Assembly: GCA_903924855.1 (NCBI GenBank)
Contig: CAIYCW010000107.1
Location: 49,531-113,530, forward strand
Length of the DNA: 64,000 bases
Source: an uncultured Rhodospirillales bacterium
GTDB lineage: Bacteria; Pseudomonadota; Alphaproteobacteria; Acetobacterales; Acetobacteraceae
Reading direction: 5' to 3'
In this document: positions 32,359-39,799 of the stretch, one piece after another
How positions within the stretch are numbered: the first letter of the stretch is position 1
Layout of the letters: every line of letters starts with the position of its first letter
The notes under the pieces: model-generated
The model's database searches: none
What the model was told of the DNA's origin: nothing
Seen by the model: only the letters and a program-made list of their open reading frames with translations
Position numbers and translations under genes: made by a program

Positions 32359-33792
32359 TCAGACGCTGATGACCCTGCCGCCCCAGGTGGGTAGCAGGTC
32401 GGCGCCTTTCTGGTTGGATGGGCCGATCAGCAGGTCTGGCCGCAGGCCGTAGAGCAGTTCGGCCGGGTTGTTGCTGTCGACCAGCACCACGAGGTCGATG
32501 GCCTCAAGCGAGGCGAGTTGGGCGGCGCGCACGGCTTCGGGCGGGCCCTGATGGCCGGCGCCGTCGCGTTCGAGGGCGACGATCAGGCGGTCGCAGGCGG
32601 CGCGGCTGCGTTGCAGCGTGTCGCTGGTGGCGGGATCGATGGTGGCGAAGCGGCCGACGGTGACGGCGGTCTGCCAGCCATCGCGGCGCCAGTTTTCGAC
32701 GCGGGCGGAGGCGGCTTCGAGGGTGACGACCTTGCGCAGGGCGCTGCCCTGCGGGGTGATGGCGGCCAGCAGATCGCCTTCGCGGGCGACGGCGATGCCG
32801 TTGCGGCTGAGCACGACGCCGCTTGCGATGCTGGCGATGCGGGCGGCCAGCGGCAGGTCGAGGCCGGCTGCGAGGCCTGCGCTGAGATTGGCGACCGTGG
32901 TGTCTCCGGTGCCGGAGACGTCGCAGATTTCGCCGGGCTCCACAGGCAGATGCATGACGCCGTGGCGGTCGACCAAGGTGAGTCCGTCTTCGGCGCGTTG
33001 CACGAGCACGGCGCCGAAGCCGTGCTGGCGGCGCATGCGTTCGGCGGCGCCGGCCACCAGGCCGTCTGTGCCGAGCTTGCGGCCGGCGAAGCGGGCGAGC
33101 TCCTCGGTGCTGGGGGTGATGACGTCGGCACCGGCATAGCGGGCATAGTCGCCGCTGCGGGTGTCGACGATGACGCGGCGGCCGGTGCTGCGGGCGATGG
33201 TGATGATGTCGGCGGGCAGGGTGCCGGCGAGCAGGCCTTTGTCATAGTCGGACATCACCGTGACGGTGGTGGCGGCCATGGCGTCGCGCAGGATGCGGAG
33301 CATGCGCTCGGCGAGTTTGGGGTGGATGGGGGAGACATCCTCGCGGTCGGTGCGAAGAAGTTGCTGGCCTTGCGCCATGTAGCGGGTTTTGCGCGTGGTG
33401 GCGCGGCTGCCCTGGACGAGAAGCCAGGGTTCGACGCCGGGCTGGCTGCCGATCAGGCCGGTGAGGTCGGAGCCGGCCTGGTCGTCGCCGACGACGGAGA
33501 CGAAGGCGACGGCGACACCGAGGGCGCCGAGATTGCGCACGACGTTGCCGGCGCCGCCGGGGACGGCGACCTCACGGTCCACGGTGAGGACGGGGACCGG
33601 GGCTTCGCGGCTGATGCGATCGACGGTGCCGTAGATGTAGCGGTCGAGCATGGCATCGCCCACGACCAGCACGGAGCTGCGTGCCAGCTTGCGGATGGCG
33701 AGCGCGAGTTCGGCGTGCCCCGGGTCGCGATGGGTGGAGGCGGGCGGGGAGGGGAGGTCGTCCGCGCCGTCGCGGAACTGCAATTCGTCCAT
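32359..33792 (-). CDS. hldE: HldE/RfaE-like heptose-7-phosphate kinase with degenerate C-terminal nucleotidyltransferase domain
   Basis: PfkB-type kinase with DVSGTGDTTVANLSAGLAAG; the C-terminal domain aligns with the HldE adenylyltransferase but lacks HxGH. Confidence 0.85.
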   Translation of the reverse strand: MDELQFRDGADDLPSPPASTHRDPGHAELALAIRKLARSSVLVVGDAMLDRYIYGTVDRISREAPVPVLTVDREVAVPGGAGNVVRNLGALGVAVAFVSVVGDDQAGSDLTGLIGSQPGVEPWLLVQGSRATTRKTRYMAQGQQLLRTDREDVSPIHPKLAERMLRILRDAMAATTVTVMSDYDKGLLAGTLPADIITIARSTGRRVIVDTRSGDYARYAGADVITPSTEELARFAGRKLGTDGLVAGAAERMRRQHGFGAVLVQRAEDGLTLVDRHGVMHLPVEPGEICDVSGTGDTTVANLSAGLAAGLDLPLAARIASIASGVVLSRNGIAVAREGDLLAAITPQGSALRKVVTLEAASARVENWRRDGWQTAVTVGRFATIDPATSDTLQRSRAACDRLIVALERDGAGHQGPPEAVRAAQLASLEAIDLVVLVDSNNPAELLYGLRPDLLIGPSNQKGADLLPTWGGRVISV

Positions 33793-33939
33793 GTCGTATC
33801 GCTAGCGCCAGTGCTGCGGCGGTGCAAGCACACCATGTGCGGGGGATCGGTGATCTGCAAACCACTTCTTAAGAATGTGGGGTCAGAGTGGGGGCACTCT
33901 CGTCATTTGCGGGGCCAGGATGGTCCGATCAGGCAGGTC

Positions 33940-35517
33940 ATGAACCAGTTCGACACGCAGCTCGCCTGGCGCTCCGCGGCCGAGCGGTTGCTGCAGGATG
34001 CGAGGCGGCTTGCGGGGCGGGGGGCGCAGGGGCGGGTTGCGGTGGTGCTGCATCTGTCCCGGCTGGTGGAACCGCGGCCGCATCATCGGCGGGTTGCCCG
34101 GGCGCTGATGCAGGAGGCGGCTTCGTGGCATGAGGGGCAGCTGTTTTTGCTGCCGGATGGCGATATGGCGTTGCTGTGTCGGGATTCGCAGTCGGTGGTG
34201 CCCCGGTCGGCTGAGTTGCCGCGTGTGGCTGATCCGCAGGCGCTGCCGGGTATGCTGGCGCGGCTGCTGGCGGTGGATGCGCCGGTGGGGTGCCAAATTG
34301 TGTCGGTTTGGCATCTGCCCCAGCAGATTGACGCGCTGCTTGACTATGCCACGCGCCAGCTTGCCGTGGCGCCGCGTTCAACTGCATTGCCGCCTCCCAA
34401 CCGCGTATCTGAGAGTCAGGGGCGTTCCATGTCTGCACCGTTTTCATCGGCGGGCTCGCCGACCAATCGTGTGACCAGTGTGGCTTGCAATCCAGCACTT
34501 CATGAGGAGGGGGGTGTTGGTCGGAGCGGTGGGGTTGGGTGGCTCGACGGTCTGGCTGAAACGGCAGGGATTGGCGATCTGCTCCAGCGCCAGACTGCGA
34601 TTGCGCTTGGGGCGGGAGGCCAGGGCCATTCGGGATTGCGCCCGCTTTACCATGAGGTGAGTTTTTCCATTGCTGGTCTGGAGGCGCGCATCACGCCGCC
34701 AGCCAATGTGAGCTCGGATCCTTATCTGTTTCGGCATCTCGCATCGAAGCTGGATCTGCGGATGCTGGAGATGTTGTTGCAGGACGTGGGATCGGGCAGC
34801 CCGCTCGATGTTCGTCAGTATGAGCGGGCTGCGCTGCATCTCAATCTCACTGTGCCGGGTGTTCTGTCGGCGGCTTTTGATCGTTTTGCTGCGGCTGCCA
34901 GTTCGCGTTCCGTGCGGGTTGGCGTGGAGGTGAGCCTGATCGAGGCGGTGGCGGATGGGCCGTTGTTTGCCCGGATGCGAGATCGGGTGCGGGAGCGTGG
35001 ATTCACCTTGGTGCTGGATAGTGTGTCGCATCTTGCTCTGTTGATGAGCCGTCCAGGTTTGTTGGGTGCAGATCTGATCAAGTTGGACTGGTCGCCGCGA
35101 TTGCCGGAACTGCCTGACAGTGAGCAGGCGGCTGTTGATCGGGCGCTGCATGACATCGATCTGGCGCGGGTGGTGCTGCATCGTGCGGAGACCGAGCAGG
35201 CGCTGCGTTGGGGTGTGGCGCATGGGATCCGCCGATTTCAGGGGCGGCATGTGGACGCGATGCTGGGCGCGTCGCGGATGGTGGGCTGTGAGTTTGCTTC
35301 CGGCTGCCGGCTGCAGCATTGCATGGAGCGTGCGGCCGCTGCCGACCTGGTCGGACGAGCCGGTTGCCACAACCAATCCCTGCTTGATGCTGGGGCGCCG
35401 GACAGCACGGATGCCATGTTTGCGATGTCGCGTGCCAATTGGCCTGCGGCCATATCGGCTGATGTCGTTGCAGGCCATGGGGCCCGGCATGCGTTGGCTG
35501 GAGGGGAGGCTGCATGA
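33940..35517 (+). CDS. Degenerate EAL-like domain protein 1
   Basis: Start MNQFDTQLAWRS. LRPLYHEVSFSIAGLEARI, LHLNLTVPGVLS, VGVEVSLIEA, GADLIKLDWS, IRRFQGRHVD fit a diverged EAL fold. The upstream part of the 32518 ORF is antisense shadow. Confidence 0.65.
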   Translation: MNQFDTQLAWRSAAERLLQDARRLAGRGAQGRVAVVLHLSRLVEPRPHHRRVARALMQEAASWHEGQLFLLPDGDMALLCRDSQSVVPRSAELPRVADPQALPGMLARLLAVDAPVGCQIVSVWHLPQQIDALLDYATRQLAVAPRSTALPPPNRVSESQGRSMSAPFSSAGSPTNRVTSVACNPALHEEGGVGRSGGVGWLDGLAETAGIGDLLQRQTAIALGAGGQGHSGLRPLYHEVSFSIAGLEARITPPANVSSDPYLFRHLASKLDLRMLEMLLQDVGSGSPLDVRQYERAALHLNLTVPGVLSAAFDRFAAAASSRSVRVGVEVSLIEAVADGPLFARMRDRVRERGFTLVLDSVSHLALLMSRPGLLGADLIKLDWSPRLPELPDSEQAAVDRALHDIDLARVVLHRAETEQALRWGVAHGIRRFQGRHVDAMLGASRMVGCEFASGCRLQHCMERAAAADLVGRAGCHNQSLLDAGAPDSTDAMFAMSRANWPAAISADVVAGHGARHALAGGEAA

Positions 35518-36704
35518 TATCTGCTGCTCGCCGCCGCCCCTCCAGAGACACGAAAGCGCAGCATCGCGAGGAGACGGCGCTGCTGGTGAGCCTCATCCGG
35601 GAGTGCCAACGTGCCGACATCCCGCGTCAGGCCGTGATCGTGCGTCTTTCGCGGCTGCCCCCGGAGCGGCTGAAGCCGCATCATCTCAGGCTTGCTCGCG
35701 CGGCGCTTGAACCGCTGGCCCATGCAGATCGTGCCCGCATGTTCGTGTTGCCAACGCTGGATATTGTCACAGTCTGGCGAGGCGCCGCAGAGGCTGCCCG
35801 GAGTGTCAGCCGGACTGCGGTGCTGCATCTGTTTGACGGAGACGATTTCGTTCCACCCATGCCAGACGACCTGTGGGAGGAATTGCAGCTGCCGCGGGAT
35901 GCGGAGCGTCTGCTGAGCCTGTCGCGCGGGCCGGAGGAGGAGGCTCCAGCTCCGGTCTCGGATCACGTGATGATGCCGCTTGATCCTGCGATGCTCGGCA
36001 GGCTGGAGGCGCAACTGGCGCAGGCCGATGTGGCCCGGTTTTCTCGCCGCCATCCGATCGCACGCGTGGCGCTGGATGGCAGCGTCCGGCTTGCTTGGGA
36101 AAAACGTGTGTTGTGCACCGCCGAACTGGCCGACAGCATGGTGCCGGGTCGCGACGTGGAGGCTGATCCTTGGCTGTTTCGCAGGCTGACCCGAACGATT
36201 GATCGCCGTGTGCTTGCGCTGTTGGCAGCCCCGGGTGAGCTGACTGATGCGGGGCCATTTGCCATCAATCTCAACGTGGCGTCGGTGCTTGCGCCGGAGT
36301 TTCTTCGATTTGACACTGCTTTGCCCAATGGGCTTCGAGGCAAGGTCACCATTGATTTCATGCCGGAAGACATACTGGCCGATCCTGCGGCGTTTCTGTT
36401 TGCCCGAGATTTCGCCAGAGCCCGAGGATATCGCCTGGCGCTTCAGGGTGTGGGGGCGGATCTGCTTGGTGTCCTGCCCCATCGCCGGCTGGGGCTGGAC
36501 TTGGTTCATCTGCGTTGGTCGGCGGGCATGCCTAGGTTGGACCTTGCGCCCACGCAGACGGAACCGCAGCGCATCGTATTGGGACAGGTTGCAACCCAGT
36601 GGGCGCTCGATTGGGGCACAGGCTGTGGCATCATCCATTTTGCAGGTCCACTGATCACCGAAAGGCTGAAGCAGCATGCCGACACGGCCCTCCTGATCGG
36701 ATGA
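35514..36704 (+). CDS. Degenerate EAL-like domain protein 2
   Basis: Paralogous to the preceding gene (DPWLFRRLTRTIDRRVL vs DPYLFRHLASKLDLRML; shared N-terminal LSRL..PHH..ARAL module); ATGA overlap. Confidence 0.6.
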   Translation: MISAARRRPSRDTKAQHREETALLVSLIRECQRADIPRQAVIVRLSRLPPERLKPHHLRLARAALEPLAHADRARMFVLPTLDIVTVWRGAAEAARSVSRTAVLHLFDGDDFVPPMPDDLWEELQLPRDAERLLSLSRGPEEEAPAPVSDHVMMPLDPAMLGRLEAQLAQADVARFSRRHPIARVALDGSVRLAWEKRVLCTAELADSMVPGRDVEADPWLFRRLTRTIDRRVLALLAAPGELTDAGPFAINLNVASVLAPEFLRFDTALPNGLRGKVTIDFMPEDILADPAAFLFARDFARARGYRLALQGVGADLLGVLPHRRLGLDLVHLRWSAGMPRLDLAPTQTEPQRIVLGQVATQWALDWGTGCGIIHFAGPLITERLKQHADTALLIG

Positions 36705-36767: not shown

Positions 36768-37511
36768 ATGAATGTCATCACGGTCGAAAATCTCAGCAAG
36801 CGCTACGGCGATGCGCTCGCGGTGGACAATGTCAGCTTCCACGTCCCGCGTGGCGGAACGCTGGGGCTGCTGGGCGGCAACGGTGCCGGCAAGACCACCA
36901 CCATTGCGATGCTGCTCGGCCTGTTGATCCCAACCAGCGGCCGGATCAGCATCCTTGGCCACGACATGGCCAAGGACCGGTTTGCCGCTCTGGCCAGGAT
37001 GAATTTCTCCTCGCCCTATGTCGCCCTTCCCGGCCGGCTGACGGTGCGCGACAACCTGGTGGTCTACGGTCATCTCTACAACGTGGCCCAGATCCACATC
37101 CGCATCCAGGAGTTGGCGGCGGAGCTCGATCTCGGCGCCCTGCTCGACCGACCGGCCGGCGAGCTCTCCGCCGGACAGAAAACCCGCGTTGCGCTGGCCA
37201 AATCGCTGATCAACCGGCCGGATGTACTGCTGCTGGACGAACCCACCGCCAGCCTCGATCCGGACACCGGAGATCTCGTCCGCTCCTGGCTCGAGCGATA
37301 CCGCGCAACATCCGGCTGCACGATGCTGCTCGCCAGCCACAACATGGCCGAGGTCGAGCGCCTCTGCTCGGACGTGGTGATGCTCAAGAACGGGCGCATC
37401 GTCGATCACGCAACACCCGCCCAACTGCTCGAACGATATGGGCGAGACGATCTTGAGCAGGTCTTCCTCGACATTGCCCGCAACCGCGCCAGCGCGGAGG
37501 CAGACGCATGA
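36768..37511 (+). CDS. ABC transporter ATP-binding protein (ABC-2 exporter)
   Basis: GGNGAGKTTTIAMLLGLL, LSAGQKTRVALAKSLI, LLLDEPTASLDPDTGD. Confidence 0.93.
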   Translation: MNVITVENLSKRYGDALAVDNVSFHVPRGGTLGLLGGNGAGKTTTIAMLLGLLIPTSGRISILGHDMAKDRFAALARMNFSSPYVALPGRLTVRDNLVVYGHLYNVAQIHIRIQELAAELDLGALLDRPAGELSAGQKTRVALAKSLINRPDVLLLDEPTASLDPDTGDLVRSWLERYRATSGCTMLLASHNMAEVERLCSDVVMLKNGRIVDHATPAQLLERYGRDDLEQVFLDIARNRASAEADA

Positions 37512-38320
37512 GCGCCGCCATGGCCGCCTCCGCACGAAGGGTGTGGGGTTTGATGTACCGCCACATGGCGCTCTTCAAGCATTCCTGGCCCCGCTTGCTG
37601 GAATTGCTCTACTGGCCTGTGCTGCAGATGACGATCTGGGGTTTCACCTCCACTTTTCTGGCCAGAAACAGTGGAAGCACTGCCGCCCTGGCCGGCGGCG
37701 CGTTGCTCGGTGGCGTTCTGCTGTGGGAGGTGGCGCTGCGCAGCCAGATGGGCATGTCTATCACCTTCCTGGAGGAGATCTGGTCGCGCAACCTTGGCCA
37801 TGTGTTTGTCAGCCCGTTGCGCCCCATCGAGATGGTGGCGGCGCTGATCGGCATGTCGATGCTGCGCATGCTGACGGGTGTCATCCCGGCCACCCTGTTG
37901 GCCTGGGCCCTCTACGCGTTCAACCTTTTCGCGATCGGCCCGGTGCTGCTGTTGTTCTTCGTCAATCTGATGGTGATGGGCTGGGCGGTGGCGCTGGCCG
38001 TGATCAGCCTGATCCTGCGCCACGGCGCGGGTGCCGAGGCCCTCGCGTGGTCCGTGCTGTTCGGCCTCACGCCGTTCTCTGCGGTGTTCTACCCGGTCTC
38101 TATCCTGCCGCATGGCGCGCGCGAGATCGCGTTTCTGGTGCCGGCCAGCCACGTTTTCGAAGGCATGCGTGCCGCTCTGCTCACCGGCCACATCGTCTGG
38201 GCCGAACTTGGCTGGGCCGTCCTGCTGAACGTGATCTGGCTGGTGGGCGCCACCGCCATCTTCACCCGGCAATTCCAGGTGGCTCGCACCCGCGGCGCGC
38301 TGATATCGATCGGGGAATAA
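37508..38320 (+). CDS. ABC-2 type transporter permease
   Basis: ATGA overlap with ATPase; about 6 TM; FGLTPFSAVFYPVSILP. Confidence 0.88.
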   Translation: MSAAMAASARRVWGLMYRHMALFKHSWPRLLELLYWPVLQMTIWGFTSTFLARNSGSTAALAGGALLGGVLLWEVALRSQMGMSITFLEEIWSRNLGHVFVSPLRPIEMVAALIGMSMLRMLTGVIPATLLAWALYAFNLFAIGPVLLLFFVNLMVMGWAVALAVISLILRHGAGAEALAWSVLFGLTPFSAVFYPVSILPHGAREIAFLVPASHVFEGMRAALLTGHIVWAELGWAVLLNVIWLVGATAIFTRQFQVARTRGALISIGE

Positions 38321-38947: not shown

Positions 38948-39127
38948 CCGCACCCCACCCGCACCCCACCCCCAATACACTTCGTAGCAGGGCGCATCGC
39001 AGCCGGCACTTGCGGCGGCGCGGTGCGAAATGCCACATGAACGCCGAAATCTGTCACCATGATCCGGCACCGCCGCATCTGCTGGCCACACCCCGCGCCA
39101 GCGCCGCCGCCACCTGGGAGAGAGTGC

Positions 39128-39799
39128 ATGTTGCGCGTCATCACCGCCGTCCTGTTCGCCCTGCTGCTGCTCCCCATCGCAGCCCAAGCGCAGACCGAAC
39201 AGCAGACGCTGGTCGACCGGGCCACCCTCTCCGTGCAGGAGATGCTCGGCGACAAGCAGGCCTCCGAGGCACGCAACCTGATGCGCAAATCCAAGGGCGT
39301 CATGGTCTGCCCGCGCATCTTCAAGGCCGGCTTCATCCTCGGCGGCCAGGGTGGCGGCTGCGTCATGTCCGGCCGCACCGCGAATGGGTGGACCAACCCG
39401 GCCTTCTACGGCATGGGCAGCGGCAGCATCGGCTTCCAGATCGGCATTCAGGACGCACAGATCATCTTCATCGTCCTCACCCAGAAAGGCCTCCAGGCCC
39501 TGCTGGACAGCCAGTTCAAGATCGGCGCCGATGCCTCGGTCGCCGTCGCCACCATCGGCGCCGGCATCCAGGGCTCCACCACCGCCGCCTTCAACGCCGA
39601 TATCGTGGCCTTCTCCACCACGCGCGGCCTGTTCGCCGGCATCTCCATCGACGGCAGCCTGATCAGCGTCCGCAGCGACTGGAACGCCGAATATTACGGC
39701 AAGCCCATCGGCGCCCAGGAACTCGTCATCTCCAACGGCGGCAACAACCCCGGCGCCGATCCGCTGCGTGAAATGCTGGCCCGCTTCTCCGGCAATTGA
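39128..39799 (+). CDS. SYLF/Ysc84-domain lipid-binding protein, secreted
   Basis: Signal peptide; SKGVMVCPRIFKAGFILGGQGGGCVM; GFQIGIQDAQIIFIV. Confidence 0.9.
   Translation: MLRVITAVLFALLLLPIAAQAQTEQQTLVDRATLSVQEMLGDKQASEARNLMRKSKGVMVCPRIFKAGFILGGQGGGCVMSGRTANGWTNPAFYGMGSGSIGFQIGIQDAQIIFIVLTQKGLQALLDSQFKIGADASVAVATIGAGIQGSTTAAFNADIVAFSTTRGLFAGISIDGSLISVRSDWNAEYYGKPIGAQELVISNGGNNPGADPLREMLARFSGN

Follow-up and report, generated by a model that had tools for sequence, protein, structure and literature searches.

The window, by which we mean the whole 64,000-nucleotide stretch of DNA analysed here, comes from a draft genome of 3.9 Mb, in 154 contigs and 84.5% complete, which its relatives place with the Acetobacteraceae/Rhodospirillales. 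It carries two consecutive genes, A and B, the first of which runs from an ATG at 33940 to a TGA at 35515-35517. The stop of A and the start of B share an ATGA, with the coordinates and overlap that the preliminary description of this DNA had claimed, and the peptides quoted in that description are found in the two translations. The features on which our argument draws are the following.

32359..33792, minus strand: hldE, heptose kinase/adenylyltransferase, the divergent upstream neighbour
33940..35517, plus strand: gene A, 525 aa, a predicted degenerate GGDEF-EAL protein with a four-cysteine C-terminal tail (translation, homologues, fold)
33973..34368, plus strand: N-terminal module of A, residues about 12-143 (model secondary structure, Foldseek matches to tandem GGDEF-EAL chains)
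34519..35259, plus strand: EAL-like barrel of A, residues about 194-440 (residue columns, weak EAL profile matches)
35287..35367, plus strand: four-cysteine tail of A, C450-x5-C456-x4-C461-x14-C476 (conserved cysteines, absent from second genes)
35514..35517, plus strand: ATGA in which the stop of A overlaps the start of B (sequence)
35514..36704, plus strand: gene B, 396 aa, a predicted degenerate GGDEF-EAL protein with no cysteine tail (translation, homologues, fold)
35544..35927, plus strand: GGDEF-like N-terminal module of B, residues about 11-138 (model secondary structure, Foldseek)
35985..36653, plus strand: EAL-like barrel of B, residues about 158-380 (residue columns; Pfam EAL)
36768..38320, plus strand: ABC-2 exporter pair, a possible operon partner (Pfam; ATPase 36768-37511, permease 37508-38320)

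A and B are about 30% identical from end to end, and whole-genome searches with either one recover the other. Identity of this extent together with mutual recovery places their paralogy beyond chance, which bears out the earlier proposal that the pair arose by duplication. Decay into pseudogenes is ruled out for the intact loci by their open frames, conserved overlap and strictly kept residues. The frame of A is also open upstream, running antisense through hldE to give a mechanical open reading frame of 999 aa (32518-35517, plus strand), and an automatic annotation could begin A much too far upstream; comparison with homologues supports a start near 33940.

Predicted fold and domain architecture

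AlphaFold models of the two proteins, built on six sequences, have mean pLDDT values of 65 and 77 and pTM of 0.54-0.55. Both match tandem GGDEF-EAL structures over their full length (RbdA/PA0861, MorA, LapD). The top PDB match by Foldseek is 5xgb for A (PA0861/RbdA, E 8e-10, 489 columns) and 4rnf for B (MorA, E 5e-12, 430 columns), and chains of LapD, PA0575 and FimX lie nearby among the structural matches. Structure prediction had been put forward as the test of an EAL TIM barrel, and both models match many EAL structures with a Foldseek probability of 1.00; on these models, each protein has a degenerate EAL barrel as its C-terminal domain. Full-chain TM scores against the tandem structures are only 0.35-0.40, which, with models resting on six sequences, makes the predicted orientation of the domains unreliable.

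By sequence, window A has no match to Pfam EAL (PF00563), with weak EAL profile matches in its barrel region, and window B reaches 15.9 bits, under the curated cut-off of 31.3. Among the class-wide relatives described below, 20 of 23 match PF00563 at E <= 1 (best 1.2e-10), some of them above the curated cut-off (e.g. 41.6 bits), and the best PDB profile match of the single-copy relatives is the EAL domain of RbdA (8pps, E 2.6e-5).

The full-length matches and the order of secondary structure elements also place a GGDEF-type fold ahead of the barrel, in models of moderate confidence. In A the module has the GGDEF-like topology helix-b1-helix-b2-b3-helix-b4-helix in model secondary structure, and the b2-b3 hairpin, at the position of the GGDEF hairpin, reads PDGDM in A and PTLDI in B. 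This module, previously described as novel, is most likely a degenerate GGDEF domain, to judge from the fold matches. The assignment is made by predicted fold only, since no sequence search detects GGDEF: PF00990 matches none of 36 A, 52 B and 23 class-wide members, a profile of the module finds no GGDEF chain in the PDB, and hhalign does not detect GGDEF when the module is compared with the GGDEF domains of the host genome. A PDB-wide match of the module to aldehyde dehydrogenases (E 0.26) was set aside as chance.

Active-site residues and the cysteine tail

In RocR, the residues of catalysis, metal and substrate binding are E175, N233, E265, D295, D296, E352, Q161 and R179, with D296 and E352 serving as metal ligands (PMC7911125). 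We read the equivalent columns from a joint alignment, in which divergent A proteins may be misaligned. K316 and Q372 (RocR numbering), which we take to be further site positions, were counted with them. Window A keeps seven of these residues, Q218, E239, N302, E330, D360, K381 and Q434 (equivalent to Q161, E175, N233, E265, D295, K316 and Q372), and has replaced the other three: R179 by S243, D296 by S361 and E352 by R415. At the same seven positions window B has H180, K197, N252, D281, Q311, H332 and A377, keeping only N252 (N233); the strings are QENEDKQ in A and HKNDQHA in B. Neither protein has the residue set of an active EAL phosphodiesterase, and canonical two-metal hydrolysis is not expected with D296, E352 and R179 replaced. 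The ExLxR motif of the FimX/LapD type is missing from both as well, its arginine column being S243 in A and C201 in B.

The preliminary description regarded the canonical motifs as eroded throughout. This is correct for B, whose pocket is lost, and incorrect for A, in which a conserved half-site is kept. Its reading of EAL as EAR in A was mistaken, the motif position being HEVSFS (E239); in B the motif column is K197 of WEKR, a placement uncertain by one residue.

Outside the host's taxonomic family the seven residues are all intact in 52 of 53 sequences, comprising 12 of 12 first genes of tandem pairs, 12 of 12 second genes and 28 of 29 single copies. E175, N233, E265, K316 and Q372 are present in 53/53 and D295 in 52/53; R179 has given way to S or A in 53/53, D296 mostly to G, and E352 mostly to an R that is nearly constant. 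Within the host's family, all seven are kept by 16 of 32 tailed A proteins and by 1 of 59 B proteins. This residue pattern argues for a pocket that has been retained but altered, as opposed to c-di-GMP binding of the ExLxR type. The role proposed for A below is not universal, because a divergent subset of the host's family has lost the pocket of A too.

The tail of A is conserved as well. Of 35 aligned A proteins from the host's family 32 have the tail, with cysteines 450, 456, 461 and 476 present in 32/32 of these, and outside that family the four cysteines occur in 12/12 first genes of tandem pairs and in 0 second genes. Adjacent same-strand genes with a Cys4 tail in the first only, as seen in all 12 of these pairs, mark a conserved two-gene module.

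Distribution, history and co-occurrence

Single-sequence searches of 150 genomes from the host's family found matches to B in 75 and to A in 63, and the neighbourhoods fetched are nearly all A then B on the same strand. A start codon lies at -4 of the A stop in 52 of 58 of these pairs, most commonly as ATGA, a count that is somewhat generous because any TGA stop after A, G or T qualifies. Relatives at E <= 1e-3 are present in 92 of 289 alphaproteobacterial genomes, or 87 once the five weakest are removed, and a 200-genome draw of the phylum yielded four genomes with relatives, all Alphaproteobacteria. Conservation beyond the strain had been named as a test of the proposed system, and the pair passes well outside it. 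Most class-wide relatives are single genes of about 420 aa; outside the host's family, two tandem copies occur in 12 genomes from seven taxonomic families.

In a tree of 83 sequences the first genes fall on one side, with most second and single genes on the other. Deep support is weak (45/94) and branches are long, with all first genes forming one clade in 52% of bootstrap trees. A tree with the duplication confined to the host's family scores 19 log units lower, and the AU test does not reject it (p 0.084). The cysteine tail common to first genes inside and outside that family speaks for a single old duplication, after which many lineages lost the first gene. Two loci, L126 (G064:C134:22725-23201) and G139:C42:4079-4504, hold only fragments of the A N-terminal module with in-frame stops; both genomes, from one genus, are missing from the flagellin-positive set, which would fit decay of the gene where flagella were lost. 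Separately, contig L008, titled Asaia bogorensis, has the same gene content as G103:C166, and its species label may merit checking.

GGDEF proteins are encoded in 87/87 genomes with the protein family and in 121/202 without it (p 7e-16), and flagellin in 80/87 and 93/202, respectively (p 1e-14). The flagellin association persists with one genome per taxonomic family (46/51 versus 41/87, p 2e-7), within GGDEF-positive genomes (80/87 versus 78/121, p 3e-6) and in the host's family alone (71/74 versus 50/76, p 2e-6). These p-values treat related genomes as independent, ignoring shared ancestry, and genome size may be a confounder, as flagellated genomes may tend to be larger. The protein family is absent from about half of flagellated genomes, and most of the seven flagellin-negative genomes that carry it in the class sample are incomplete. 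Three small complete genomes (G194, G319 and G413; loci L188, L202 and L203) have 3-4 GGDEF matches each, and their sole EAL matches are two members of the A/B family, counting EAL-type proteins only. The preliminary description mentioned neither the cysteine tail nor the spread of the family across the class, nor its association with GGDEF proteins and flagella.

A candidate c-di-GMP signalling module

The earlier view of A and B as a tandem, coupled pair of EAL-fold pseudo-phosphodiesterases is supported by the fold models, the homologues and the conservation of the pair. Beyond this, the reading that we prefer, with confidence falling just short of even, is that A and B form a complex that signals without hydrolysis within the c-di-GMP network of flagellated alphaproteobacteria. 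As co-translated sisters, the two proteins would pair as an A-B complex in which A is the ligand side, its half-site offering one metal-ligand set and the substrate glutamine while lacking the second-metal residues and the phosphate-binding arginine. Such a pocket could accommodate a single metal, perhaps also a nucleotide, and the tail may form a Cys4 knuckle of zinc, iron-sulphur or redox type. In the host's family B, having lost its site, would be a structural or output subunit. Arrival of a c-di-GMP-related ligand or a metal on A would then change the complex, which would act on a motility or envelope/cell-surface target. A bolder version, which we find possible but distinctly less probable, would make the pair an undescribed and ancient module of two proteins in motile alphaproteobacteria, whose half-preserved EAL site, with one metal set, no phosphate arginine and an arginine where the second-metal glutamate would be, reads or processes a c-di-GMP-related ligand, gated by the metal or redox state of the Cys4 knuckle of the first subunit, and hence a receptor class distinct from FimX/LapD.

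If the preferred reading of a non-hydrolytic A-B complex is right, the half-kept site would be a defined alternative to ExLxR binding. The pair is also a natural experiment in subunit specialisation, since both sites are kept elsewhere and one has been lost here. A family present in 87 of 289 sampled genomes, always together with GGDEF proteins, is in any case a candidate link between c-di-GMP and flagellar life.

The best-placed alternative, though we consider it unlikely, is an ordinary receptor of the LapD/FimX type, with c-di-GMP bound conventionally by the degenerate EAL domain of A and the signal passed on through a change of conformation. The tandem degenerate GGDEF-EAL architecture is the same by fold, the protein family is always accompanied by GGDEF proteins, and the Q161 equivalent is kept outside the host's family. 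However, FimX and LapD bind through ExLxR (PMC12564702), and the absence of its arginine from all 53 relatives outside the host's family, as from A itself, argues against it; in window B the pocket is lost altogether.

A somewhat smaller likelihood attaches to the idea that the proteins are ligand-free adaptors, comparable to the EAL-like YdiV/STM1697, which bind the flagellar regulator FlhD. The link with flagellin fits this well, as does the persistence of B in the host's family as an intact, coupled gene when only 1 of 59 copies keeps the pocket, and there is precedent for two EAL-like proteins jointly controlling flagella (PMC10100727). Against it, the strict conservation of the seven residues outside the host's family suggests that a ligand is bound.

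We doubt still more that the half-site is a one-metal active site of a non-canonical enzyme, with pGpG, some other cyclic dinucleotide or another type of phosphodiester as its substrate. Outside the host's family, near-invariant site residues and the arginine in the E352 column go beyond the constraint expected of a mere scaffold, and in the three small genomes described above GGDEF proteins coexist with EAL matches that all belong to the A/B family. Yet D296 and E352, metal ligands in RocR (PMC7911125), are gone, and the genes persist in the host's family where B and many A proteins have lost the site.

Least probable is a role apart from motility, in which A and B would be accessory regulators serving the neighbouring ABC exporter or heptose/envelope synthesis. 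In its favour, hldE stands divergently next to the pair in 40 of 62 host-family loci and lies near 8 of 35 loci outside, and the ABC-2 pair is found within 12 kb in 37 of 64 genomes of the host's family. Against it, the exporter is present in 30 genomes without the A-B pair and missing from 9 with it; outside the host's family it does not appear among the neighbours identified, and many loci there have unrelated neighbours.

The 30 genomes that have the permease without the pair rule out an obligate ABC-exporter partner, and a role confined to the heptose locus is not supported, as hldE is not nearby at most loci outside the host's family. The occurrence of hldE near these loci both inside and outside that family suggests a common ancestral position. 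Other neighbours outside include a histidine kinase with a response regulator, cobalamin genes, polysaccharide export, dapA, UvrA and RNase E. On an Azospirillum lipoferum plasmid, the relative (L168, 5587-8798) is annotated as a hypothetical protein; the genes immediately after it encode a MotA/TolQ/ExbB channel and an OmpA-family protein. At many host-family loci a Ysc84-like gene (39059-39799, plus strand, in the window) accompanies the ABC exporter and a histidine-phosphatase (CobC-like) gene, both names being read from sequence.

Degenerate GGDEF-EAL proteins are known c-di-GMP effectors. FimX and LapD, like A and B, have a tandem GGDEF-EAL fold with both active sites altered, and use the ExLxR arginine for c-di-GMP binding (PMC12564702); A and B lack that arginine, are encoded by paired genes, carry a Cys4 tail on the first protein, have a GGDEF domain undetectable by sequence, and show no PAS or REC domain. 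RbdA/PA0861 and MorA, the GGDEF-EAL enzymes that are the best structural matches of A and B, differ from the A/B family in that the latter has D296, E352 and R179 replaced. YdiV/STM1344 and STM1697 of enteric bacteria are EAL-like, tied to flagella and present as two per genome in Salmonella (PMC10100727), a likeness that we draw by description; they act on FlhD, whereas the A/B family adds a GGDEF-like module, a half-site and a tail. Pfam EAL matches most class-wide relatives, with window B below the cut-off and window A unmatched. No model of its own for the family appears among the Pfam and NCBIfam matches, and searches of open-access full text turned up nothing specific on it, so that the family is apparently undescribed and unnamed. 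What is known here is the degenerate GGDEF-EAL architecture; what is new is the residue signature, the tail and the pairing.
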